Origin: Chloroflexota bacterium
Lineage (GTDB): Bacteria > Chloroflexota > Dehalococcoidia > Lucifugimonadales > Australimonadaceae
NCBI GenBank assembly: GCA_009838965.1
Contig: VXQP01000069.1
Location: 7,130 to 71,129 of the forward strand
DNA length: 64,000 nt
Reading direction: 5' to 3'
The notes below the pieces were generated by a model. It saw nothing but the letters and a program-made list of their open reading frames with translations, ran no database searches and was not told the origin of the DNA. Shown piece by piece: positions 9,807 through 44,945 of the stretch (its first letter is position 1; every line of letters starts with the position of its first letter). The translations under genes were made by a program, and so were the position numbers.

Positions 9807-10870
9807 TGGGATCTGTGCGTAACCCCACGTCCCCCCCCGATGGTTCACCCTCACCGCGCACTGAAGCGCGTGCTTCTCCCCTCAAGGGAGAGGAGGGAAG
9901 CGATGGCGCGGCGCACCGCCGCAGGCACGTGCTGGACCTGGACGACTTCTCACGGGAAGAGATAACGGCGCTGCTGGACTCGGCGGACGCGATGCGCGAA
10001 CTGCTGAGCAGGAGCATCAAGAAGGCGCCATCGCTCCGGGGGAAGGTGGTGTTGACGCTTTTCCTAGAGCCGAGCACGCGGACGCGCGTCTCGTTCGAGC
10101 AGGCCGGAAAGATGTTGAGCGCGGACGTCATCAACATCAGCGGTTCCGGCAGCAGCGCGGAGAAGGGCGAATCGCTGCTGAACACGGCGCTCACGCTGCA
10201 GGCGATGCACGCGGACGTCATCGTGATACGCAGCCCGCACTCAGGGGCTCCATATTTCCTGGCACGTAACCTTCAACGCATGGGTGTGGTCAACGCGGGC
10301 GACGGACGCCACGCGCACCCCACGCAGGCGCTGCTCGACCTGATGACGATGCGCCACCACATCGGCGGACTCGAGGGCAAGCGCGTCGTCATCGTGGGTG
10401 ACGTGCTGCACAGCCGCGTTGCGCGGTCGGACGTGTTCGGCCTGCAGGCGCTCGGCGCGTCGGTCGTGCTGTGCGGTCCGCCGACGCTGATCCCACTCGA
10501 CCTGCTGCGCGGCGGGGAAGGGGAAAGCCTCCCCGACGTGAGTGTCGAGCACGACCTCGACCGTGCGATAGATGACGCGGACGCGGTGATAGCGCTGCGC
10601 ATCCAGCAGGAGCGGCAGGGCGCGGGCATGCTGCCGAGCATGCGTGAATACACGCGCCGCTGGCAGGTCACCGAGGCGCGTTACCGCAGGGCGAAGCCCG
10701 GCGCGCTGCTCATGCATCCCGGGCCTATGAACGAGGGCGTGGAGATCGCGTCATCGCTCGCGCACGGGCCGGGCTCGCAGATCGAGGAGCAGGTGACGAA
10801 CGGCGTCGCCGTGCGGATGGCGCTGCTCTACCAACTGCTCACCGGCGGGCAGGAAGAGGTGAGCGAATGA
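9803..10870 (+). CDS. pyrB: Aspartate carbamoyltransferase catalytic subunit
   Basis: Catalyses carbamoyl phosphate plus aspartate to carbamoyl aspartate. Diagnostic motifs are [13 protein letters not shown] (carbamoyl-phosphate site), [37 protein letters not shown] and [12 protein letters not shown]. The body matches class-B/C enzymes of about 310 residues. However, the frame starts with an extra ~40-residue, low-complexity N-terminus ([17 protein letters not shown]...) encoded largely by a family-1 palindromic repeat (9846-9897). A GTG at HVLDLDD could be an alternative start. The ATG overlaps the pyrR stop, and the stop overlaps the pyrC ATG. Confidence 0.95.
9846..9897 (+). repeat. Small palindromic repeat, family 1, copy B (inside pyrB)
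   Basis: CACCCTCACC, a GCGC-actgaa-GCGC dyad and CTCCC-ctcaa-GGGAG follow the same layout as copies at 9020 and 63076. It lies in frame within the 5' end of pyrB and codes for part of its atypical N-terminal extension. Confidence 0.72.
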
Positions 10871-33752: not shown

Positions 33753-34544
33753 CTAACGCCGCCTGCGCGCGTATCCGATGCTGCTGAGGACCAGCACGAG
33801 GACGAGGAGCGGCAGGACCCATACCCACGGCGGAATACCGCCTCTTTCCTCAGGCGTTGGCACAACCGGAACCGGGGTCATCGTCGGAGAAGCCGGAGGT
33901 CTGGGCGTAGGCGTTGCGGTGGGCTCAGGCACCGGTGTTGCGGTGGGCTCAGGCACCGGTGTTGCTGTTGGCTCCTGTGTGGGAGTAACCATCGGACGTG
34001 GCGTCGCAGTCGGGGCCGGTGTGGCGGTTGGAGTAGGCGTCGGCACGGGCGTTGCGGTGGGCGTTGGTTCGGCCGTCGGTGAGGCCTGCGGATCGGGCGT
34101 GGAGACCGGCGCGAGTGATGGCCCGACCCGCAGGCTGGTGTCGCCTCCGACCTCGTGCTCGACCTTATGTTGGTCTCGCACGATGCCGGAGAAGATGAAC
34201 TCCGCCTCGACAGCAGGCGCTTGCACCGTGTAGGTGAACTGCTCCTCCCCCAACAGCGTGAACGTGGCCGCATCCAGCCTCGCGTCCACGGCGGCGTCGG
34301 GGAGGCTGGAGCCAACGAACGTGAACCCGCCCGGCAGCGTCTCCACAACCTGGGCGAACGCGCCGTAGTTCCGGGCCGCTATGGTCACCTCGATCTGGCC
34401 ACCCGGAGCAACCGAGGGGGAGGCGAATGATCGCGTGGCGCTGTGACCGGACGCCTCCGCGTCGTTCGACTGGCTGAGGACCGCCACCGCGACCACGACC
34501 ACCATGAACAGCAGCAGCAGTAACAGCGGTATGCTCCTGTTCAC
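33753..34544 (-). CDS. Secreted Thr/Pro-stalk protein with C-terminal membrane anchor
   Basis: A 263-residue surface protein. Residues 1-32 are a signal peptide or membrane helix. Residues ~40-140 form a beta-rich domain (VTIAARNYGAFAQVVETLPGGF). Residues ~145-230 are a Pro/Thr/Ala stalk with exact short tandem repeats (EPTATPVP). The end is a tail GIPPWVWVLPLLVLVLVLSSIGYARRRR, a hydrophobic helix followed by four Arg, the topology of a wall- or sortase-like C-terminal anchor without an LPXTG motif. The start overlaps the stop of the giant cadherin-repeat gene by four bases, so both are made together. It may tether or display that protein. Confidence 0.8.
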   Translation of the reverse strand: MNRSIPLLLLLLFMVVVVAVAVLSQSNDAEASGHSATRSFASPSVAPGGQIEVTIAARNYGAFAQVVETLPGGFTFVGSSLPDAAVDARLDAATFTLLGEEQFTYTVQAPAVEAEFIFSGIVRDQHKVEHEVGGDTSLRVGPSLAPVSTPDPQASPTAEPTPTATPVPTPTPTATPAPTATPRPMVTPTQEPTATPVPEPTATPVPEPTATPTPRPPASPTMTPVPVVPTPEERGGIPPWVWVLPLLVLVLVLSSIGYARRRR

Positions 34545-37500
34545 GACGCGCTCTCCCCGGCGAAGTAGATCTTGACGATCTCCGTTGCTTGCTCGCGGGT
34601 GAGCGTGCCCGCGGTGTAGTCGTTGACCGCCGCGATGGCCTCGTCGAGATCGATCACCTCGTTGCCATTGGCGTCGTAGTCGTTGGCGATGCCTGACAGG
34701 GCCACGTTGGTGATCTTGATGACCACCCGTATGCTGGCCGAGGCGCCGCTGGCGTTCTTTGCCACCACCGTGACCTGATACGTGTTCTGCTCGCCCTCGA
34801 AGTCGAAGACCGCTCCCTCGGCGATGCTGATCTGTCCGGTCTGTGCATCGATGGTGAACAGCGCGGCGTCGGCGCTCGACAGACTGTACGTCACCGCCTC
34901 GCCCTGGTTGTCTCGCGCCGATATCGGATCGCCGATGGCATCCCCGGGCTGCGCGTTCTCGGGCACGTTGCGCGAGGTCTGGAATCCCTCGCTGAACACG
35001 GGCGGAGGGATGATGCGGGTGAAGGTACCGCCTCCTCCTCCGCCGCCCCCGCCGCCGGTGGAACCGCCGGTGCCGGTGGTCGGCGGCCGCCGCACCGTGG
35101 GAGCGGCGGTCACCGTTATCGTCACGTCGATGGTGTCGTCCGGGGCAGTGGACTCGTTGTAGTTGGCGTCGAAGCCGTCGTGGACGGACACCGTTACGTC
35201 GTAGGTGTTGTCTCCGTCCGGGTCGTGCTCGATGACGTCCTTCGTCTTGATCTGGCCGGTAGCCGGATCGATGTCGAAGGTTCCGGCGTCCGAGCCGCTC
35301 AGCGCGTAGGTGAGCACGTCGCCCGGGTCGGCATCGGTAGCCCGTACCGGCGAGCCGACGTTCCGGCCCGCCGCCGGGCCCGCGGAGATGCTACGGGTGG
35401 CCGTGCGGCCCGTATCCGTGCCGTCATCGTCCTCAGTGAACTCGGGCGCGGTGTTCGTTGCGGACCTCGTAGCGCCTATGGCCGAAGCGAGCACAGCGGA
35501 AGCCGTCTTGTTGCTGCCGCGGGCGTCCTCGTAGGAGACGCTTGCCCGCAGGTACTGGTCGGCGTCGTCCGCGCCCACCGTGTAGCTGCTGGACGTTGCT
35601 CCATCGATGTCTGCCCATCCGCCTCCGCGGCTACGCGACCGCGCCCACTGCCAGGACTCGCTGCTTATGTCGCCGTCGTCGTCGGTCAGGCTGGCGCTGA
35701 ACCGCGTGTTCGCGTCCACCCAGCCTCGTGACGGGGTGATGGCGACCACGCCCTCTTCCTCAACATCTGTCACCGTGACGGTCACCGAGAGGGAACCGGA
35801 GAGACTGAGGGTTGCGTCGTCGTCCGTGGCGGTGATGACTACCGAGTAGGTCGTACGCTGCTCGTAGCTGGGCGGCGTGCGGAAGTAGAGCTGGCCCCGG
35901 TTCGAGATCCAGAAGTTGGTGGTGTCGCTGACCGACCAGGTGAGCGTGTCGCGCTCCGGGTCCGTGCCGGTGTAGGTCGCGACCGCCCGGTTGGAGTTCT
36001 CCTGGAATGACGGCGTCTCGTCGCCGGTAACGACGGGCGCTTCGTTCACATCCGTCAGCGTGATGATCATGTTCTGCCGGTCGTCGATGGCGTCCATGTC
36101 GGGGTCGCCCAGCGAGTTCGCGCCGTCGGTGACCTCCACCGTGACCCGCAGGGTGCGCCTGGTTTCGAAGTCCAGTTGCGCGCCGGTGGCAACCCGCAGT
36201 TGCCCATCGCTCGCGCCGACGGTGAAGAGCGCCGCGTCCGTCCCGCTCAACGTGTACGTCAGCGGGTCGTCGTTGAAGTCCGTGGCGACCACGGGGTCGC
36301 CAACGGCCGTGCCGCCGGTGGCGTCCTCCGGGATCTCCCGCCTGCCGTTCTCCGTCGCCGGGAACGCCGGCGCCGAGTTCACCGGCGGCGGCTGTCCCAC
36401 GCGCGGCGACACCCTGATCGCCGTCTTGCCCGAGTCTTCGCCGTCGTTGTAGCTGGCGGTCGCGCGGATGTAGCCGCCGACGTCTGTGTCCGCCGGGGTG
36501 AACGTGTCGGACGTCGCCCCCGCGATGTTGGCCCATCCCGACGTACTGCTGCGAGATCGCGCCCACTGCCAACTGACGGAGCCAATGATGCCGTCATCGT
36601 CCTCCAGCGTGGCCGTCACCGGGACCCTCGCCTGGATGGTCGCCGTCTCCGAAGAGAGCGTTACGGTCCCCGGCTCATCGAGGTTCTCCACAGTGATCGT
36701 GACGCTCTGCGTGTCGTCGATGGTGGTGGACGTGGCGCCTGAGCCGTCCCTGCCGTCGTGCACCTCCACGGTGACGCTGTAGGTGGACTTGGTCTCATAG
36801 TCCAGCGTCACGCCGGATGCGAGGCGGATCTGCCCGGTGCTCGTGATGGTGAAGGAGGCGGCGTCCGTGCCAGTCAGCGTGTACGTCAGTGCGTTTCGCT
36901 CAGGGTCGATGGCAGCGACGGGATCGCCGATGTTCGTGCCCGCCCGCGAGTTCTCCGGAACGGTGCGCTGGCCGGTCTCCGTGGCCGGGAAGAGGGGGCG
37001 CCGGTTCGTAGTGGGAACGGGGTTCGTGATCCCTTCCGCGCTCTTGCCGCCGCCCCGCCGGTCCGTGTATTCGACCCTGGCGCGCAGGTAGCGGTCGCCG
37101 TCGTCTTCGGTCGGCCTGTAGCTGCGGTTCGTCGCTCCCGATATGGGCGTCCAGCCGGTCCGCCCGTCATCCGACCAGGCCCACTGCCAGGAGGCGCCCG
37201 TGACGCCGCCATCCCCGTCAGTGAGCGTGGCCGTCAGCAACACCCCAACATCCGGTTCCTGGGCGGAGAGGGTTACTACGCCGTCTTCCTCCAGGTCTAT
37301 GACGCGCACCGATACAACGGTAGTCACGTCGATGGAGTCGTCGTTGATCACCATATCGTTGGCGTCCAGGCCCTTGCCGTCGTGCAGGGTGGCGGTGAAG
37401 AAAAGCAAGCCCTCCGATCCCGCCGTCTCGAAGTTCAACGCCCCGACGGCCGTGATCTGTCCGGAAGACGGGTCGATCTCGAAGAGAGCGGAGTCCTGCC

Positions 37501-40500
37501 CGGCCTGGATGCCGAATGTCAGGTTGTCGTTATCGCGGTCCGTGGCTGTCAAGCGTTCGGACAGGACCCTGCCGGCGGCCCCCTCGTCGATCGCCTGGCT
37601 GGTCCCCGAGCGGAACCGGGGCTTCACGTTGGGCAGGGGGTCCGCTTCCACAGGGGAGGTCTCGCCGCTGGTCAGCATCTTCCGGTTGAAGAGGTTGCGG
37701 TCCGCGTTTCGCCGGTCGAAGTAGGACACCTCGGCCCGCAGAGGCTTCCCGGCATCATCCTCGTCCACCGTGTACCTCAGCGTAGTGGAGGCGCCCCCCC
37801 CGATGGTAATGGGCTGCCACACCCCCGATTCCTGAGCCCTCAGGGTCCAGCTGATATCGACTGCATCCGTGTCGATGCCGCCGTCCGGGTCCGACAACGT
37901 GAAGGTGATCGTGTCCCCCACGACGGGGTCCAGGTTGTCCACCCTGATGACGCCCGTCTCCTCGATGTCGCGCACCGTCACGGTGACGGGCTGCGTGGCG
38001 GTGCGGCGGTTCGTCTTGCTCAGGATGTCCGTGGCGACGACGTTGAAGTTGTAGACGTTGTCCCCGCCGGAGTCCTTCGGGTCCTCGAAGCTGGGCGTCT
38101 CCTTGAAGGTGACGTTGCCGCCGCTGTCGATCTCGAAGTCAAGCGCGTCCGTGCCCGTGAGCGACCACGTGACCCCGCCCTCCTCGTCGCGCGCGGTGTA
38201 CGACGCGATGGTCGAGAAGGCGTAGGGCGGCTCCTGGAAACTCGCGTCGAGGGTAGCGTCGTGCTCGTCGAGCGCTATCGTCGTTTCGACGGTCCCTGTG
38301 AACTCCGGCTGCTCGTTGACGTCGAAGATACGGATGAAGACCTCGTGCATCGCGGTATTGGTGCCGTCGGACGCGTTCACGGTGAACACGTATCCGTTAG
38401 CTCCTACATCGGTTGAAGAACCCATCGGGTCCTCGAAGTCCGGCACGATATTCCAGCGGGCGATGGCGCTCTCGTCAGCGTCGGCCGTCATGACGAAGGT
38501 GGGGTCTTCCACGATGACGAAATCGGCCGCGTCGGGCCCGATGATGGTCCAGATGATGTCGTCCCCCTCCTCGTCCCGGGCCTCGAACCGGTACCAGTAG
38601 GCCTGGTTCGCCACCGTGGCGGGGATGGTGGAGAGATCAGACGCCGTGGTCCCGGAGTCGTACTCGATCTCGTCCGCGTGCCGACCGGTCGAGGGTGCAG
38701 TGAACCCCGGCGTCTCGTTGACGTTGGTGACCGTCACTGTCATCGGGTAGTCGCGCGTGTTCGGGCCGTCGCTGATCTTCACGATGACCTGGTACACGTT
38801 GTCATCGGCTACGTGGCTTTCGGCGGTGTTCACGCGGTCGGTCGGGTCCTCGAAGTTGGGCCGGTCCCGGAAGCTGAGCGTGCCGTGGCCGGTCGTGGAG
38901 TCCTCGGTGATCTGGAAGTCGGCGGCGTCCGTGCCGGCCAGGGACCACGACAACTCGGTAAGGGTGCTTATCTCCTCGTCCCGGGGGACGTAGGTCATCA
39001 CGTCCAGGTCCGCGGAATCGGCGTCCCACTCGATCTCCGCGAAGCTTTCGTCAGGAACGCCGAGCGGGACCTCCGGCGTCTCGTTGATGTTCGTGACGGT
39101 CACAGTGACGGGGAACGTCCCGACGCTGTTCGATTCGCCCGCTCCGTCATCGGCCCTCACGACGACCTCGTACATGTTGTCTGAGGCACCCATCATGTTC
39201 GAGTCCGCCAGGTCGGCGGGGTTCTCGAAGTCCGGCTCGATGCTGAAGGAGAGGACACCAGTGCTCCCGTTGATGCTGAAGTGGGCCGCGTCCGTGCCGG
39301 ACACGTCGAACGTGATCGTCTGGAGTCCGGCGTTGTCGGCGTTGTCGTCGTCGGTGGCGGTGTAGGTTCCGATGACGAGCTCGGAGGCCGTGGCCGTGTG
39401 GTCGAACTCGATCTCCGCGAAGCTTGGCCCGGCGTTCCCGGCGACCACCGGCGTCTCGTTGAGGTCGTTGACGGTGACCGCGACGCTCTGGGTGTGTTCC
39501 AGTCTCGGGCTCCCGTTGTCCCTCACCCGCACCGTCACGTCATAGACGTTGTCCGTGCCGGTGTCGTCCGGCCTCTCGTAGTCCGGCGGACTCTTGAACG
39601 TGAGCTCGGCCGTTCCGTTCACGGTCGACGTGATGTTGAAGTCCCCCGCATCGTTGCCCAGCAGGTCCCATGACATCGTCCCCGTCGTCGCGTCCGGGTC
39701 CGTCGCCACGTATGTCGCGACGACCCCCGTCGCGTTCTCGTCGAACGTGGCGGAACCGGGGGCGGACGTCAACGTGGGCGCTTCGTTGACGTCCGTGACG
39801 GTCACTGCGAGGGACTTGGAGATGCTGAGGTGGTTCGACGCTCCCCGGGCGCCGTCGATGCCGTTGTCCGTGACCGTGACCGTGACGTTGTAGACGTTGT
39901 CGTTGCCGGCGTCCTGCCTGTCCTCGAAGTTCGGCGCGTTCTTGAACGTGAGCACGCCGCTCGACGAGCCGATCTCGAAGAAGCCCCCGTCGTCGGCGCT
40001 CTCCACCGACCACGTCAGCGTATTGGCCGAGTCGTGGGACTCGTTGTTCTCGTTGTCCACGTCGTTTGCCATGTACGTGAGGACGGAGGTCTGGTTCTCC
40101 GCGACGGAGATCGAGGTCTGGGGGGTCGAGATCGTGGGCTGCTCGTTCACGTCCAACAGGTTGATGGTCACCGTGATGCTGTCGTCCACAGAGTTGCTGT
40201 CGTCATTTCCGGCGGCGTCCTTGCTGTCGCTCACGTTAACGGTCACGGTGTAGCTGCTCTTGGACTCGTAGTTGTAGGTCCTCGATGTGGTCTGTATCTG
40301 GCCGCTCGTCGAAACGATGGTGAACGAAGACGCGTCCGTACCGCTCAACGTGTAATGCAGCGGGTCGCTGTCGCCGCCCGTGGCGGATACCACCGAGCCG
40401 ACGTCGACGCTTCCGCCGCTGTTCTCAGCCACGCTGCGCGTTGCGGTCATGCTGCTGAATGACGGCTCGACGTTGCTGGCGCCGATCTGGCCCGTGACGG

Positions 40501-42787
40501 CGTTGGCGGACTTGCCCGACCCCTGGGGGTCCGTGTAGCTCGCCGTGGCGCGCAGGAACTTGTTCACGTCCGCGGCCACGGTTGTATAGGAGGCTGAATT
40601 GCCATTCGACGTGATGTTGGTGAAGGGTCCCGAGGCCGAGTTCCCCCGTGCCCACTGCCACGTTACGTTGCTGACGGTCCCGTCGATGTCGGTCACGGAG
40701 GCCGTCAGCGTCTCGCCACCCGACTCCGTGCCCGTGATCGTCACCGTGCCGGGCTCGTCCACGTTGGAGAGGCTGATGGTCACGTCGATGTCGTCGTCCT
40801 TAATAGTGTCGGGATCGCCGGCCTCGTCTTTGTTGTCACGCACGTTCACGGTGACGCTGTAGCTGCTCTTGGCCTCGTAGTTGTAGGTGATGCCCGACTT
40901 GGTCTGGATCTGGCCGCTCGTCGAAACGATGGTGAAGGACGAGGCGTCCGTGCCCGTCAACCAGTAGTGCAGCGTGTCGTTGTCCTGGTCCGTGGCCGAC
41001 ACCGCAGCCCCGACGTCTGTCCCCACCACGCTGTTCTCAGGAAAGCTGCGCATCCCGGTCTCAGTGGACGGGAATGACGGGTTCCTGTTGCCCGCCGCCA
41101 CCTGGCTTGACGCGGCGCTGGTTGCGGACTTGCCCGAGCCGTGGGGGTCCGTGTAGGACGCCGTGGCCTTCAGATACTTGCCGATGTCCGCGGCCACGGG
41201 CGTGTAGGGATTGGAGGTCGCTCCGGAGATCGGGTTGAAGGTTCCCAAAGCCGTGTCCCCCCGCGACCACTGCCACGAAACGCTGGTGGTGGTCCCGTCG
41301 TGGTCGGTCAACGTCGCGGTCACCGGCGTCCCGGCCGTGATCGTGCCGGGCAGCGACACCGTCCCGGCCTCGTCGATGTTGGTGATAGTCACCGTGACGG
41401 CAATGTCGTCGTCGACGGCGGAGCCATCAGTGTCCTTCACCTCGACGGTCACGTTGTAGACGTTGTTGGTGCCGGCGTCCCGTGGGTCCTCGTAGTCGGT
41501 GAGGGCCTGAAACCTGAGCTCTCCTGTCGAGTTGATGGTGAAGTCGGCCGCGTCGGCGCCGGTTAACGTCCACGTGAGCGTGTCGTCCTCCGGGTCGTCC
41601 GCTGCGTAGGTGGCGAGCACGTCACTGGGCCCCGTGCCCTCCGGCTTGCTGATGGAGGTGTGGGACGAGCCCGTGCTCGTGATGTCCGGCTCCTCGTTGA
41701 CGTCGGTGACATCGACGACAACATCAAAGGTATCGCTCATGGCGGGCGAACCGCTGTCGGTGACCTTGATGGTCACCTGGTATGTGTTGCTGGCGGGAGT
41801 GGTCGCGCTGCCCGGCGTCTCATAGTCCGGCGCGTCCTTGAATGAGAGTATGCCGGAGGTCTGTCCGATCTCAAAAAGCGCCCCGTCCTGGTTCTCCTCA
41901 ACGCTGGTGTCGCTGTCTATCGACCACGTGTGGGTGTCCGCCGAGTCCGGGTCCGAGACCGTGTACGTCCCGACGGTGGTCGCGTTCTCATCAACATCGG
42001 GGGCATCGTCACCGGCGATGGTGGGCTCCTCATTGAGGTCGTTGACGTTGATGGTCACCTTGATGCTGTCGTCCCATATGCTGTCGCCGACTCCGGTGGG
42101 GCTCTTGCTGTCGCGAACGTAGAGCGGCACAACGTAGGAGGGTGTGGTCTCGAAGTCCAGTGTGCTAGATGCTTTTAGCTGACCGCTGGAGTCAACGGTG
42201 AATATGAAGAAGGTCGCGGGAAACGAGTAGGTCAGCGTGTCGCCCGAGCCGTTGCCCGTGACGGTGATCGGGCTCCCTGCGCTCATTCCAGAGGCTGTGT
42301 TCTCATCAACGGAGATCGTGATCGTTTCGGACGAGAAGACTGGCCGGTCGTTGCTCGCGCCGGTATGGTTGGTAGCCTCCTGGCCTGTAAACGACGGCGC
42401 GTCGTTGCCGTCTGCTGAATCGTCCTCCACCGGGCTTGACCCTATCGTGTAGTCCAACGTCACCGTGTCGCCGCTTGCGGCGCCTGTCGACAACGTGAGC
42501 GCCACCTCAACGCCGCGCACGGCGACGCTCGACGGGGTGTAGTCCGTGCCGCCGATGTCCACGGTGAAATCGGTGGTTGCGGGGGTGGAGCTTTCGTTCA
42601 GGAGCTCGTTGTAGATGAGGACCAGGGACGTTCCGTCCACGTTCACCACGAGCAGCGAAGGAGGGGTGGTATCGAAATTCTGCGCGCGCGCCTGCGGGAC
42701 ATACAGCACGAAAAGCGCCGCCAGAAAAGCCAGGGCTGCCACGGACATGAGGGGGCGAAAGAAGCGCGCCGGGCGCGTAGCGTGCAT
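34541..42787 (-). CDS. Giant secreted cadherin/Ig-like repeat protein with dockerin-like end
   Basis: At 2748 residues this is the largest gene in the window. The ATG at 42787 follows AAGG, and a signal peptide ends at QARAQ. A short SwmB-like domain (LVLIYNELLNES) comes first. Then come many cadherin-like modules with the refrain LDFET..YxVTVxVxD and about 15 Ca-binding-type junctions (DVNEEP, NLNETP, DVNEQP). These are interspersed with at least five Ig-like modules having VSWQWARS..G.W.I.GAT..TYTP and RATASYTDPxGSGKSA. A Gly-rich linker (GGGGGGGGGG) near residue 2590 precedes a last cadherin unit and a C-terminal EF-hand/dockerin-like segment (YDANGNEVIDLDEAIAAVNDY). It is likely a calcium-dependent adhesin on the cell surface. 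Confidence 0.9.
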   Translation of the reverse strand: MHATRPARFFRPLMSVAALAFLAALFVLYVPQARAQNFDTTPPSLLVVNVDGTSLVLIYNELLNESSTPATTDFTVDIGGTDYTPSSVAVRGVEVALTLSTGAASGDTVTLDYTIGSSPVEDDSADGNDAPSFTGQEATNHTGASNDRPVFSSETITISVDENTASGMSAGSPITVTGNGSGDTLTYSFPATFFIFTVDSSGQLKASSTLDFETTPSYVVPLYVRDSKSPTGVGDSIWDDSIKVTINVNDLNEEPTIAGDDAPDVDENATTVGTYTVSDPDSADTHTWSIDSDTSVEENQDGALFEIGQTSGILSFKDAPDYETPGSATTPASNTYQVTIKVTDSGSPAMSDTFDVVVDVTDVNEEPDITSTGSSHTSISKPEGTGPSDVLATYAADDPEDDTLTWTLTGADAADFTINSTGELRFQALTDYEDPRDAGTNNVYNVTVEVKDTDGSAVDDDIAVTVTITNIDEAGTVSLPGTITAGTPVTATLTDHDGTTTSVSWQWSRGDTALGTFNPISGATSNPYTPVAADIGKYLKATASYTDPHGSGKSATSAASSQVAAGNRNPSFPSTETGMRSFPENSVVGTDVGAAVSATDQDNDTLHYWLTGTDASSFTIVSTSGQIQTKSGITYNYEAKSSYSVTVNVRDNKDEAGDPDTIKDDDIDVTISLSNVDEPGTVTITGTESGGETLTASVTDIDGTVSNVTWQWARGNSASGPFTNITSNGNSASYTTVAADVNKFLRATASYTDPQGSGKSANAVTGQIGASNVEPSFSSMTATRSVAENSGGSVDVGSVVSATGGDSDPLHYTLSGTDASSFTIVSTSGQIQTTSRTYNYESKSSYTVTVNVSDSKDAAGNDDSNSVDDSITVTINLLDVNEQPTISTPQTSISVAENQTSVLTYMANDVDNENNESHDSANTLTWSVESADDGGFFEIGSSSGVLTFKNAPNFEDRQDAGNDNVYNVTVTVTDNGIDGARGASNHLSISKSLAVTVTDVNEAPTLTSAPGSATFDENATGVVATYVATDPDATTGTMSWDLLGNDAGDFNITSTVNGTAELTFKSPPDYERPDDTGTDNVYDVTVRVRDNGSPRLEHTQSVAVTVNDLNETPVVAGNAGPSFAEIEFDHTATASELVIGTYTATDDDNADNAGLQTITFDVSGTDAAHFSINGSTGVLSFSIEPDFENPADLADSNMMGASDNMYEVVVRADDGAGESNSVGTFPVTVTVTNINETPEVPLGVPDESFAEIEWDADSADLDVMTYVPRDEEISTLTELSWSLAGTDAADFQITEDSTTGHGTLSFRDRPNFEDPTDRVNTAESHVADDNVYQVIVKISDGPNTRDYPMTVTVTNVNETPGFTAPSTGRHADEIEYDSGTTASDLSTIPATVANQAYWYRFEARDEEGDDIIWTIIGPDAADFVIVEDPTFVMTADADESAIARWNIVPDFEDPMGSSTDVGANGYVFTVNASDGTNTAMHEVFIRIFDVNEQPEFTGTVETTIALDEHDATLDASFQEPPYAFSTIASYTARDEEGGVTWSLTGTDALDFEIDSGGNVTFKETPSFEDPKDSGGDNVYNFNVVATDILSKTNRRTATQPVTVTVRDIEETGVIRVDNLDPVVGDTITFTLSDPDGGIDTDAVDISWTLRAQESGVWQPITIGGGASTTLRYTVDEDDAGKPLRAEVSYFDRRNADRNLFNRKMLTSGETSPVEADPLPNVKPRFRSGTSQAIDEGAAGRVLSERLTATDRDNDNLTFGIQAGQDSALFEIDPSSGQITAVGALNFETAGSEGLLFFTATLHDGKGLDANDMVINDDSIDVTTVVSVRVIDLEEDGVVTLSAQEPDVGVLLTATLTDGDGGVTGASWQWAWSDDGRTGWTPISGATNRSYRPTEDDGDRYLRARVEYTDRRGGGKSAEGITNPVPTTNRRPLFPATETGQRTVPENSRAGTNIGDPVAAIDPERNALTYTLTGTDAASFTITSTGQIRLASGVTLDYETKSTYSVTVEVHDGRDGSGATSTTIDDTQSVTITVENLDEPGTVTLSSETATIQARVPVTATLEDDDGIIGSVSWQWARSRSSTSGWANIAGATSDTFTPADTDVGGYIRATASYNDGEDSGKTAIRVSPRVGQPPPVNSAPAFPATENGRREIPEDATGGTAVGDPVVATDFNDDPLTYTLSGTDAALFTVGASDGQLRVATGAQLDFETRRTLRVTVEVTDGANSLGDPDMDAIDDRQNMIITLTDVNEAPVVTGDETPSFQENSNRAVATYTGTDPERDTLTWSVSDTTNFWISNRGQLYFRTPPSYEQRTTYSVVITATDDDATLSLSGSLSVTVTVTDVEEEGVVAITPSRGWVDANTRFSASLTDDDGDISSESWQWARSRSRGGGWADIDGATSSSYTVGADDADQYLRASVSYEDARGSNKTASAVLASAIGATRSATNTAPEFTEDDDGTDTGRTATRSISAGPAAGRNVGSPVRATDADPGDVLTYALSGSDAGTFDIDPATGQIKTKDVIEHDPDGDNTYDVTVSVHDGFDANYNESTAPDDTIDVTITVTAAPTVRRPPTTGTGGSTGGGGGGGGGGTFTRIIPPPVFSEGFQTSRNVPENAQPGDAIGDPISARDNQGEAVTYSLSSADAALFTIDAQTGQISIAEGAVFDFEGEQNTYQVTVVAKNASGASASIRVVIKITNVALSGIANDYDANGNEVIDLDEAIAAVNDYTAGTLTREQATEIVKIYFAGESAS

Positions 42788-42858
42788 GCAGGATTCCCTT
42801 GTCGCACTTCGACATCGCTTCAGATGGGGCCGTTCCGCCCGCGATGCCATTCACGCCC

Positions 42859-43042
42859 ACAGCCTGACCGACGCGTCCCCGGAAGTCTGTACATGCGCAG
42901 TTTCGGACTGTTTCACTCCTGCGATGTTCACGGATCCATGCCCGCACCCAAGGCGTTGCGCACAGTCAAAGAGGGGCCATGTGCACGGTCAGTGGATACG
43001 ATGTGCCCGCATGGCAGGGAGCGTTCACTCAGAGTCTTTGCG
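42859..43042. repeat. ~185-bp direct repeat, copy 1
   Basis: The copy begins AGCCTGACCGACGC and contains AAGTCTGTACATGCGC, TTTCGGACTGTT and CACTCCTGCGATGTTC, ending near TCAGAGTCTTTGCGCC. It matches 43296-43480 over its whole length, strongly in the first ~90 bases and more weakly afterwards. Confidence 0.85.
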
Positions 43043-43243
43043 CCGAGTGAAAACCGAGGCGATAGCGGAGCGGCCCCGGTGCACCAGCCACGCTGTGTCA
43101 CAGCGTCGGCAGACTGGTCGGGGCTCTCCGGGCGCGGGCGGCGGAGGTGGCGCGATCCAGTGCCCACAGTATGTCCGGACGAGGCCGTTGTCGTGCGCCG
43201 CGATGCGGTGGCGTAGGTGGTCGAAGTCTGCCGGTCGTTGCAT
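43025..43243 (-). CDS. Small zinc-ribbon-like protein
   Basis: The 72-residue product has TYCGHW and, after a proline run, PVCRRCDTAW, giving Cys/His ligands for a small zinc site. Most codons end in G or C, as in real genes here, and GGTGA precedes the ATG. Its 3' end enters direct repeat copy 1, and copy 2 begins 53 bases before its start. I do not recognise the family. The frame could be chance in GC-rich DNA, but the cysteine pattern and third-base bias argue for a gene. Confidence 0.5.
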   Translation of the reverse strand: MQRPADFDHLRHRIAAHDNGLVRTYCGHWIAPPPPPAPGEPRPVCRRCDTAWLVHRGRSAIASVFTRRKDSE

Positions 43244-43295
43244 CGGGGATCACCTCGTGGAGTCGCGAAGCGGCCTTGCCGCCCCGAAGTCTGCA

Positions 43296-43480
43296 ACAGC
43301 CTGACCGATGCCTCCCCGGGAAGTCTGTACATGCGCGGTTTCGGACTGTTCCACTCCTGCGATGTTCGCGAATCCATGCCCTTACCCAGGGTGTTGTGCA
43401 CAGTCCATGAAGGGTTATGTGCGCGGCGGGCGGATGCGATGTGCCGGCGCGGCATGGCGTTCGTTCAGGGTCTCCGCAAC
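43296..43480. repeat. ~185-bp direct repeat, copy 2
   Basis: The second copy of the 42859-43042 repeat, with the same orientation and offset by about 438 bases. Shared stretches include AAGTCTGTACATGCGC and ACTCCTGCGATGTTC. It ends about 50 bases before the start of the HTH membrane protein gene, and so lies in its upstream region. Confidence 0.85.
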
Positions 43481-43529
43481 AGTTGCAGGACGTACTGTTG
43501 GCCGGAGTTGCATCCGATACCATGTCTGC

Positions 43530-44945
43530 ATGCCCACGAACGGACCTCTCGGCAACACTCCCCACGATGTGTTTCTGGCGATGACGGCCGAGATCGATGA
43601 GCAACGGCTGAGAGCGGCCCAGGCGGGGTTCGCCATGAGGGCCTACCGCGAGTCCTTCCTCACTGAAGACGGCCAACGCGGCCTGAGCCAGGAAGGGCTG
43701 CTCCGGCTCATGGCGTCGATAGACGATGAGTACGCGGAGCGGTTCAGCCATGCCACCGTCTCCCGGTGGGAATCGGGAGCGACACGCCCCACCGTGCGCC
43801 GGCTGCAGGTCTTCGGGATGGCCCTGGGGCTGTCGCCGACGGAAGTGGCGGGGCTGATCCTGCTGGCAGGCCTCGCGCCTGATCTCCAGACGGCTTCCTC
43901 CATGGCCACCAATGGTGGAAGCAGCCGGGGCCCCGAGTCCGAACCGACGCCGGGCGAGGAGTATGGACCGACGGACCCCGTGGCCGGTGGCGGCCACGCA
44001 ACGGCGACCGCGCCTCCGCTGTTGGGAGGCTGGGCGCGGTTCGTATTCCTCAGGTGCCTGCCCCTGGGTGTTGCTATCGTTGGCGCCGGGTACGTCCTCT
44101 CATTCCTGGACTGGGAGAACATCTGGACCCCCGCGTTCTACGTTGGCCTTGCGACGGCGCTGGTAGTCACCCAGGGGTTCCTGTTCCCCGATCGCACGAT
44201 TCACAACAGGGAATTCTTCTGGGTTACGCTGTTCGTCGTGCTCAGCACGCCGCTGCTGCAGTTCGCACCCCTGGGCATGGACCACTACAGCCTCTATCGG
44301 GTTGGGGACTCCGTCGGCACCTACGTGCCTTTCCTGCTCGCCCTCCTGGTGAACCTGGCGCTCGCTGCATCCGCCGGGCTGATGTTCCAGTTCCTGTGGC
44401 AGTGGCAACGCTCGCGCTACGGCGGCGAGGGCAGCATCCTCCAGCGGTCGGTCTGGACAGTCCTGCCGCCGGTGGGCTTCGTGTACGCCGTTGTCCTCGT
44501 GATATCGAACGCCTCGGTCTGGATACAGCTTGGGGTTCTGATGCCGGCGACCGCGGTCCTCTTCATCGCATTGCTGGTCGTCCAGGACCCCTCCACCAAT
44601 CCCAGCGAGAGGGACAGGCAGTTCCTGCTGTCGACCACGCTGGCGGCAGCGATCGTTTCGTCGGTGTTGGGCCTGCTCACCATTATCGCGGTATACGTCT
44701 CTCCCGATCTGCCGATGGTCCTGCCGGACCACAACATGTTGAACTCGTGGGAGATCGACTTCGCCGCGTTGGGCTTCTCCCGCGAAGAGGCCCTGGACCG
44801 GTTGAACCTGGGCTACCCGTGGCATGCGATAACTGTCTTCGGTTACATGGCCTTCGTCGTGGCCGGTAACCTGGTAGCGTCGATGTACCGGCTCGGCGGC
44901 AGGAACAACGACACGCCTGAAGCGCGGGCCCCGGGGGAGCGCTGA
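43530..44945 (+). CDS. HTH (XRE-type) DNA-binding membrane protein
   Basis: A 471-residue fusion of a helix-turn-helix domain and a membrane domain. Residues ~25-115 contain LSQEGLLRLM and FSHATVSRWESGATRPTVRRLQVFGMALGLSPTE, a clear XRE/lambda-repressor-like fold. A hydrophilic linker follows, then about eight hydrophobic helices (for example FVFLRCLPLGVAIVGAGYVLSF) to the end. The ATG at 43530 follows TACCAT by six bases, so a leaderless mRNA is likely; the longer frame back to 43308 runs through the direct repeat. It is a candidate one-component membrane-bound transcription regulator. The signal and targets are unknown. Confidence 0.82.
   Translation: MPTNGPLGNTPHDVFLAMTAEIDEQRLRAAQAGFAMRAYRESFLTEDGQRGLSQEGLLRLMASIDDEYAERFSHATVSRWESGATRPTVRRLQVFGMALGLSPTEVAGLILLAGLAPDLQTASSMATNGGSSRGPESEPTPGEEYGPTDPVAGGGHATATAPPLLGGWARFVFLRCLPLGVAIVGAGYVLSFLDWENIWTPAFYVGLATALVVTQGFLFPDRTIHNREFFWVTLFVVLSTPLLQFAPLGMDHYSLYRVGDSVGTYVPFLLALLVNLALAASAGLMFQFLWQWQRSRYGGEGSILQRSVWTVLPPVGFVYAVVLVISNASVWIQLGVLMPATAVLFIALLVVQDPSTNPSERDRQFLLSTTLAAAIVSSVLGLLTIIAVYVSPDLPMVLPDHNMLNSWEIDFAALGFSREEALDRLNLGYPWHAITVFGYMAFVVAGNLVASMYRLGGRNNDTPEARAPGER

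Follow-up and report, generated by a model that had tools for sequence, protein, structure and literature searches.

A ~185-bp block upstream of an HTH-membrane regulator gene and of surface-protein genes in a Chloroflexota genus, a candidate copied promoter/operator region

We examined a window of 64,000 nucleotides from a Chloroflexota bacterium (contig VXQP01000069.1, positions 7,130 to 71,129 of the forward strand; genome G000 hereafter) and focused on a ~185-bp block, R, present there in two copies (R1 and R2) around a small open reading frame (ORF). A long cadherin gene lies on one side of this arrangement and the gene of an XRE-like HTH regulator on the other. The features of the locus are the following:

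34541–42787, minus strand: cadherin protein of 2,748 aa, in which 14 cadherin stretches were recognised; its upstream region is R1
42858–43043, plus strand: R1, one copy of the ~185-bp block, preceding the minus-strand cadherin gene
42885–42908, plus strand: box 1 of R1, GTCTGTACATGCGCAGTTTCGGAC, common to the HTH upstream regions of other families
42957–42986: inverted arms of R1, TGCGCACA ... TGTGCAC
43025–43243, minus strand: ORF of 72 aa with CGH...CRRC seen by eye; its last ~19 nt (3' end) lie inside R1
43296–43480, plus strand: R2, the second copy, flanked by the minus-strand small ORF and the plus-strand HTH-membrane gene
43323–43346, plus strand: box 1 of R2, GTCTGTACATGCGCGGTTTCGGAC
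43395–43424: inverted arms of R2, TGTGCACA ... TGTGCGC
43530–44945, plus strand: XRE-like HTH regulator of 471 aa, whose membrane part is hydrophobic and probably ~8-pass

The original prediction had described two direct repeats of the same orientation bracketing the 72-residue gene, one of them close to an HTH membrane regulator, and both observations held. R1 and R2, whose borders were set by a sequence profile, are 81–83% identical: the repeat search recovered a main repeat of 143 nt (42877–43019 and 43315–43457; 83% ungapped, same orientation) and a left segment (42859–42882 and 43296–43319; 92%), blastn aligned the two copies with 82% identity over 180 nt (E = 8e-46), and their identity on the multiple alignment was 81%. 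R1 is located ~70 nt upstream of the called start of the cadherin gene (42787, leftward), while R2 is located ~52 nt upstream of the small ORF (leftward) and ~50 nt upstream of the HTH gene (called from 43530, rightward). No sigma-70-like promoter was scored in 42750–43600. By eye, the C-terminus of the cadherin protein, YDANGNEVIDLDEA, has the look of an EF-hand/dockerin-type calcium motif.

DNA and profile searches of 39 genomes (6 of this Chloroflexota genus and 33 others of the order) detected 12 copies of R in three genomes: three in G000, five in G002 and four in G005. The profile was built from these 12 copies, and its search is limited to 67 scored candidates per genome. Neither search detected R in the other three members of the genus, and no full-strength R was found in the 33 other genomes of the order, which gave two weak partial matches (E 7e-4 and 4e-3). 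A scan for an exact pattern, with one genome for each species, returned 6 stretches, all in two Chloroflexota MAGs corresponding to G002 and G005; this pattern misfits some R copies, and the window's own records possibly lie outside the scan. Viral contigs gave 0 matches to one exact pattern. Comparison with relatives, as the original prediction had proposed, thus showed that G005 retains the arrangement of the window (cadherin, R1, small ORF, R2, HTH), yet R copies do occur elsewhere, with a third in G000 (G000:C63:3906–4042, truncated) and nine in the two relatives.

A recombination switch had also been proposed, in which R1 and R2 would recombine and excise the small ORF; R copies could likewise shuffle surface genes. 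The direct repeats are spaced 438 bp apart, and a surface gene on contig G002:C366 has R copies of opposite orientation on its two sides, both of which such a switch could use. However, R1 and R2 have no identical run longer than 18 bp, a length that work in E. coli places as short for homologous recombination, and the same arrangement is kept in G005, so that we consider a switch highly improbable.

The small ORF is kept over 65 residues in G005, and among the 39 genomes only there. It had no Pfam or NCBIfam match, and the CGH and CRRC seen by eye make a zinc ribbon possible. On the minus strand its dN/dS over 65 codons was 0.137, and that of one open plus-strand frame was 0.129; the region carries a purifying signal of ambiguous strand, since the open plus-strand frame is as low and dN/dS does not settle the coding strand.

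The genes beside R were called with a codon-usage script and frame reading, and their domains were assigned by Pfam and family search. For 9 of the 12 R copies the gene downstream encodes a surface-type protein: cadherin, cadherin-like, FN3/RCC1 or Ig-like. The downstream genes of these copies are:

R1 in G000 and in G005: cadherin
C524a, C524b and C510: cadherin-like beta-sandwich
C81: RCC1/fn3
C366a: fn3
C366b: RCC1
C2: Big_2 lipoprotein; another lipoprotein lies on the opposite side

The remaining three copies are R2 in two species (small ORF/HTH) and the C63 copy of G000 (DUF1330 gene). The left-hand gene points away from R in 11 of the 12 copies, with the putative small ORF counted twice; the exception is C366b, where the orientation of R relative to its gene is reversed. 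The C510 gene is short (158 aa), lacks an evident secretion signal (secretion and lipoprotein signals of R-linked genes were judged by eye) and may be a remnant. The PF12733 domain was present in 4 genes across the three R-bearing genomes, all of them in G002: three have R upstream, and the fourth lies on contig C170 (3,983 nt) without R. Among the matches listed, RCC1 or cadherin matches were mostly on contigs without R. Finally, contigs C524 (L046) and C366 (L047) of G002 together carry four R copies; positions 10195–10365 at the end of the former hold the 5' part of an HTH gene and positions 1–122 at the start of the latter hold the 3' part of one, and the two contigs may be neighbours.

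In the tree of R copies, R1 of G000 grouped with R1 of G005 (95/96) and C524a with C524b (99/98), and the remainder was nearly star-like, with long end branches. According to this grouping the R copies are old, and the R1/R2 pair is older than the split between G000 and G005. The block does reach new places, since the C63 copy of G000 sits in a ~423-nt spacer and the matching spacer of G004 has ~100 nt and no R; this empty site is too diverged for placing the junctions (target-site duplication; one site compared). The C63 spacer also contains a different dispersed repeat of ~32–38 bp (L003:3714–3751), which recurs in G002, G003, G004 and G005.

Such a spacer, the dispersed copies and the integrase-core (rve) fragment at one end of G002:C524 (positions 1–192, ~2.6 kb from C524a), the only one met, could be read as traces of a small non-autonomous mobile element (MITE-like), or R could be the boundary of an insertion unit with the small ORF, the latter close to the small insertion unit of the original prediction. 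Fixed ends are absent, however: the ends are ragged and differ among the 12 copies, and the extra left or right sequence common to some copies only fits segmental copying better than a fixed-end transposon. The repeat search reported no terminal inverted repeat for either R1 or R2, the copy at C63 is a truncated one, R copies are biased to upstream regions, and the star-like tree with its long end branches argues against a recent burst. With the R1–ORF–R2 order also kept in G005, the insertion unit lost its footing, and we regard a mobile element of either kind as very unlikely.

Segmental copying leads to the main rival explanation, passive duplication, according to which R copies would be left-overs of segmental duplications of a surface-gene-rich locus and would have no shared function. 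In R2, C524a, C524b and C2 the similarity extends to the right of R, reaching or entering the 5' end of the HTH gene, and in R1 and C510 it extends to the left too; C524a and C524b lie 7 kb apart, each before a paralogue. Conservation within R was only moderately significant, as 653, 114, 28 and 235 of 5000 shuffles reached the best conserved windows of 8, 10, 12 and 15 columns, respectively, and among related copies conserved blocks are by themselves little proof. Passive duplication accounts less well for downstream genes that differ in domain family (Cadherin, Cadherin-like, RCC1/fn3, Big_2), which leaves R as the common part, and for a box, GTCTGTRCA, that is exact in 10 of the 12 copies despite pairwise identities of 63–86% and is present in other families of the order. 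We therefore hold passive duplication to be unlikely.

A structured RNA (leader or small RNA) is the reading to which we give least credence. RNAalifold did propose a stem, GUGCACA/UGUGCAC, in a structure where, for 4 of 29 pairs, both sides were changed in one or more sequences, but its covariation term was 0. Mean folding z-scores over the 12 copies (-0.26 for the plus strand and 0.21 for the minus strand) were not above shuffles, there was no Rfam match in 42000–44500, and R occurs in both orientations to the downstream gene (C366b).

The DNA-binding domain of the regulator corresponded to HTH_31 in 26 and to HTH_3 in 25 of 27 homologues (E ≤ 0.01, best 3.8e-8), and the window protein matched with E 1e-4 and 22.9 bits, under the curated cut-off of 27. 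The membrane part is represented by ~8 Kyte-Doolittle peaks after residue 160 (hydropathy only), and the structure prediction, made from two sequences only, yielded a model too poor to use (pLDDT 40.7). A search of 250 genomes of the order (E ≤ 1e-15) recovered homologues in 21 of them. Three genomes of the same order (G181, G186 and G189) had 5–6 matches each to the HTH-membrane regulator. The locus was examined for 30 of 39 HTH matches (3 with R and 27 without), the 9 others being farther ones or fragments. In G000 and G005 the HTH gene lies directly behind R2, and in G002 just two fragments of an HTH gene, both at contig ends, were found: the first follows R, and the second adjoins an inverted R copy. 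Among the genus genomes without R, G001 and G004 had no HTH match and G003 had only a 53% paralogue.

The nearer homologues (52–58% identical, six lineages after merging near-identical ones) had a divergent upstream gene in 11 out of 11 cases, and 8 of these neighbours showed a secretion-like N-terminus by eye. A divergent secreted-type gene was also found at each of the HTH loci G000:C14, G003, G005:C61, G033 (another family) and G002:C293, whose intergenic regions gave a weak R match with filters off (E 0.0007–0.037); the weakest of these alone mean little, since two R-profile matches elsewhere in these loci had E 0.022 and 0.035. A second HTH-membrane paralogue occurs in two species (L065:3707–7770 and L066:7147–11210), adjoining genes that look like rpsO and pnp, with a divergent secreted-type gene on its opposite side.

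R and the HTH upstream regions have a box in common, GTCTGTRCA followed after a short gap by TTTTTGAC (TTnnGGAC in R). Its core, GTCTGTRCA-n-TTnnGAC, was found upstream of the regulator's nearer homologues in six lineages. GTCTGTnC occurred within 330 nt upstream of 14 of the 27 R-less homologues (11/11 nearer and 3/16 farther, a split made after the HTH loci had been seen) versus 6 of 152 control regions, from which those with the full box had been removed beforehand; 13 of the 16 farther homologues lacked the box. In three farther homologues the box takes the form of a dyad, TGTGCAA..TTGCACA. A weight matrix made from 14 HTH upstream sites, none from R, ranked R2 first and R1 second on both strands of the 64-kb window, ~4 bits above the third-ranked site, a test that is partly circular because R supplied the expression by which its input was selected.

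Whole-genome patterns gave a similar picture. GTCTGTRCA-N4-14-TTNNGAC had 8 matches in the 6 genus genomes, namely 7 R copies and one site upstream of the G003 HTH paralogue, and its reversed control had 0; the pattern misses 5 of the 12 R copies. AGTCTGTRC-N7-15-TTGAC had 6 matches in 11 genomes, each upstream of an HTH gene, and its reversed control had 2. Since these patterns were derived from the same sites, only the absence of other matches is informative. The box is thus tied almost exclusively to HTH upstream regions and to R: in other families the exact box behaves, from these counts, as a single-copy mark of the regulator gene, and in this genus a variant of it has spread.

R holds a second dyad, TGTGCACA ... 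TGTGCAC. The 12 R copies contain 47 TGYRCA boxes, where shuffled sequences had 5.9 on average and 15 at most, an excess that we do not take as proof because the copies are related. The HTH upstream regions showed a modest excess (nearer, 13 against a mean of 5.8 and maximum of 15; farther, 15 against 6.7 and 14). In unbiased k-mer counts the top 7-mers were ATGTGCA (10 of 17 groups, a count that comes partly from coding sequence within the stretches) and TCTGTGC (9 of 17), with a shuffle maximum of 9. A -10 element was seen by eye at other HTH loci and is degraded in R.

Taken together, we think it probable that R is the divergent promoter/operator region of the regulator, copied in this genus before surface genes, so that the R-bearing genes would form a predicted adhesin regulon. 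Among the possibilities raised by the original prediction this is the duplicated promoter/operator region, a choice favoured by the presence of the same box before the HTH gene in other families of this order. Concerning the order of events as we infer it, the block would first have stood in the intergenic stretch that separates the gene of an XRE-like one-component regulator with a membrane anchor from a divergent gene, usually of secreted type. Box 1 (GTCTGTRCA, beside or over the -35-like TTnnGAC) is probably a binding site of this regulator, as is probably the TGTGCACA/TGTGCAC dyad, and through them it would control its own gene; a box that abuts or overlaps a -35-like element would fit repression. 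Within the genus the whole block would have been copied before other genes, mostly cadherin, cadherin-like, FN3/RCC1 and Ig-like ones, which would fall under the same regulator, and the membrane part of the regulator may sense something at the envelope. At the window locus, R1 would serve the cadherin gene and R2 would stand before the small ORF; a separate copy for the small ORF would explain the double occurrence of the block.

A more tentative extension, which we put forward as possible, is that the envelope or host surface is sensed by an XRE-type regulator with a polytopic membrane part, which would coordinate a variable set of animal-like adhesins; new adhesin genes would be recruited when the whole divergent promoter block is copied before them, in the manner of a plug-in regulatory cassette. 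The four R copies on the two G002 contigs, beside surface genes and HTH ends, suggest an adhesin island built in this way.

Systems of related kinds are already known. ToxR and CadC are membrane-bound one-component regulators of bacteria, and XRE-family repressors that are autoregulated from divergent operators are a known kind of system. The regulator described here resembles the latter in its HTH_31/HTH_3 domain and in the dyad-like boxes beside a -35-like element upstream of its own gene, and differs in having a membrane part and an operator block dispersed in one genus. It shares with ToxR/CadC and with ArnR/ArnR1 the joining of a DNA-binding domain to a membrane part in one protein, unlike them being of HTH_31/HTH_3 type with ~8 hydrophobic peaks, in a Chloroflexota host and with a presumed target that is a ~185-bp block copied whole. 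ArnR of Sulfolobus acidocaldarius is reported to bind the promoters of several surface appendages (PMC6396743), so membrane-bound one-component regulators of surface structures are established. The same holds for cadherin and FN3 genes of sponge symbionts (PMC8163846), the protein types found downstream of R; the accessible part of that report describes genes and not a shared regulatory region, and the R block is the difference here. In the open-access literature, searched by titles and abstract starts, we found no paper on a regulator, box or repeat of this kind, and the open-access search likewise returned nothing on the control of such surface-protein genes.

The regulator family, the 24-bp box and the list of presumed targets would allow a direct in vitro test without culturing the organism. 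If the proposed copying is correct, it would show that a regulon can grow by the copying of whole promoter blocks and not by single-site build-up, and the position of R before adhesin-type genes gives a hint of how their joint switching might work.
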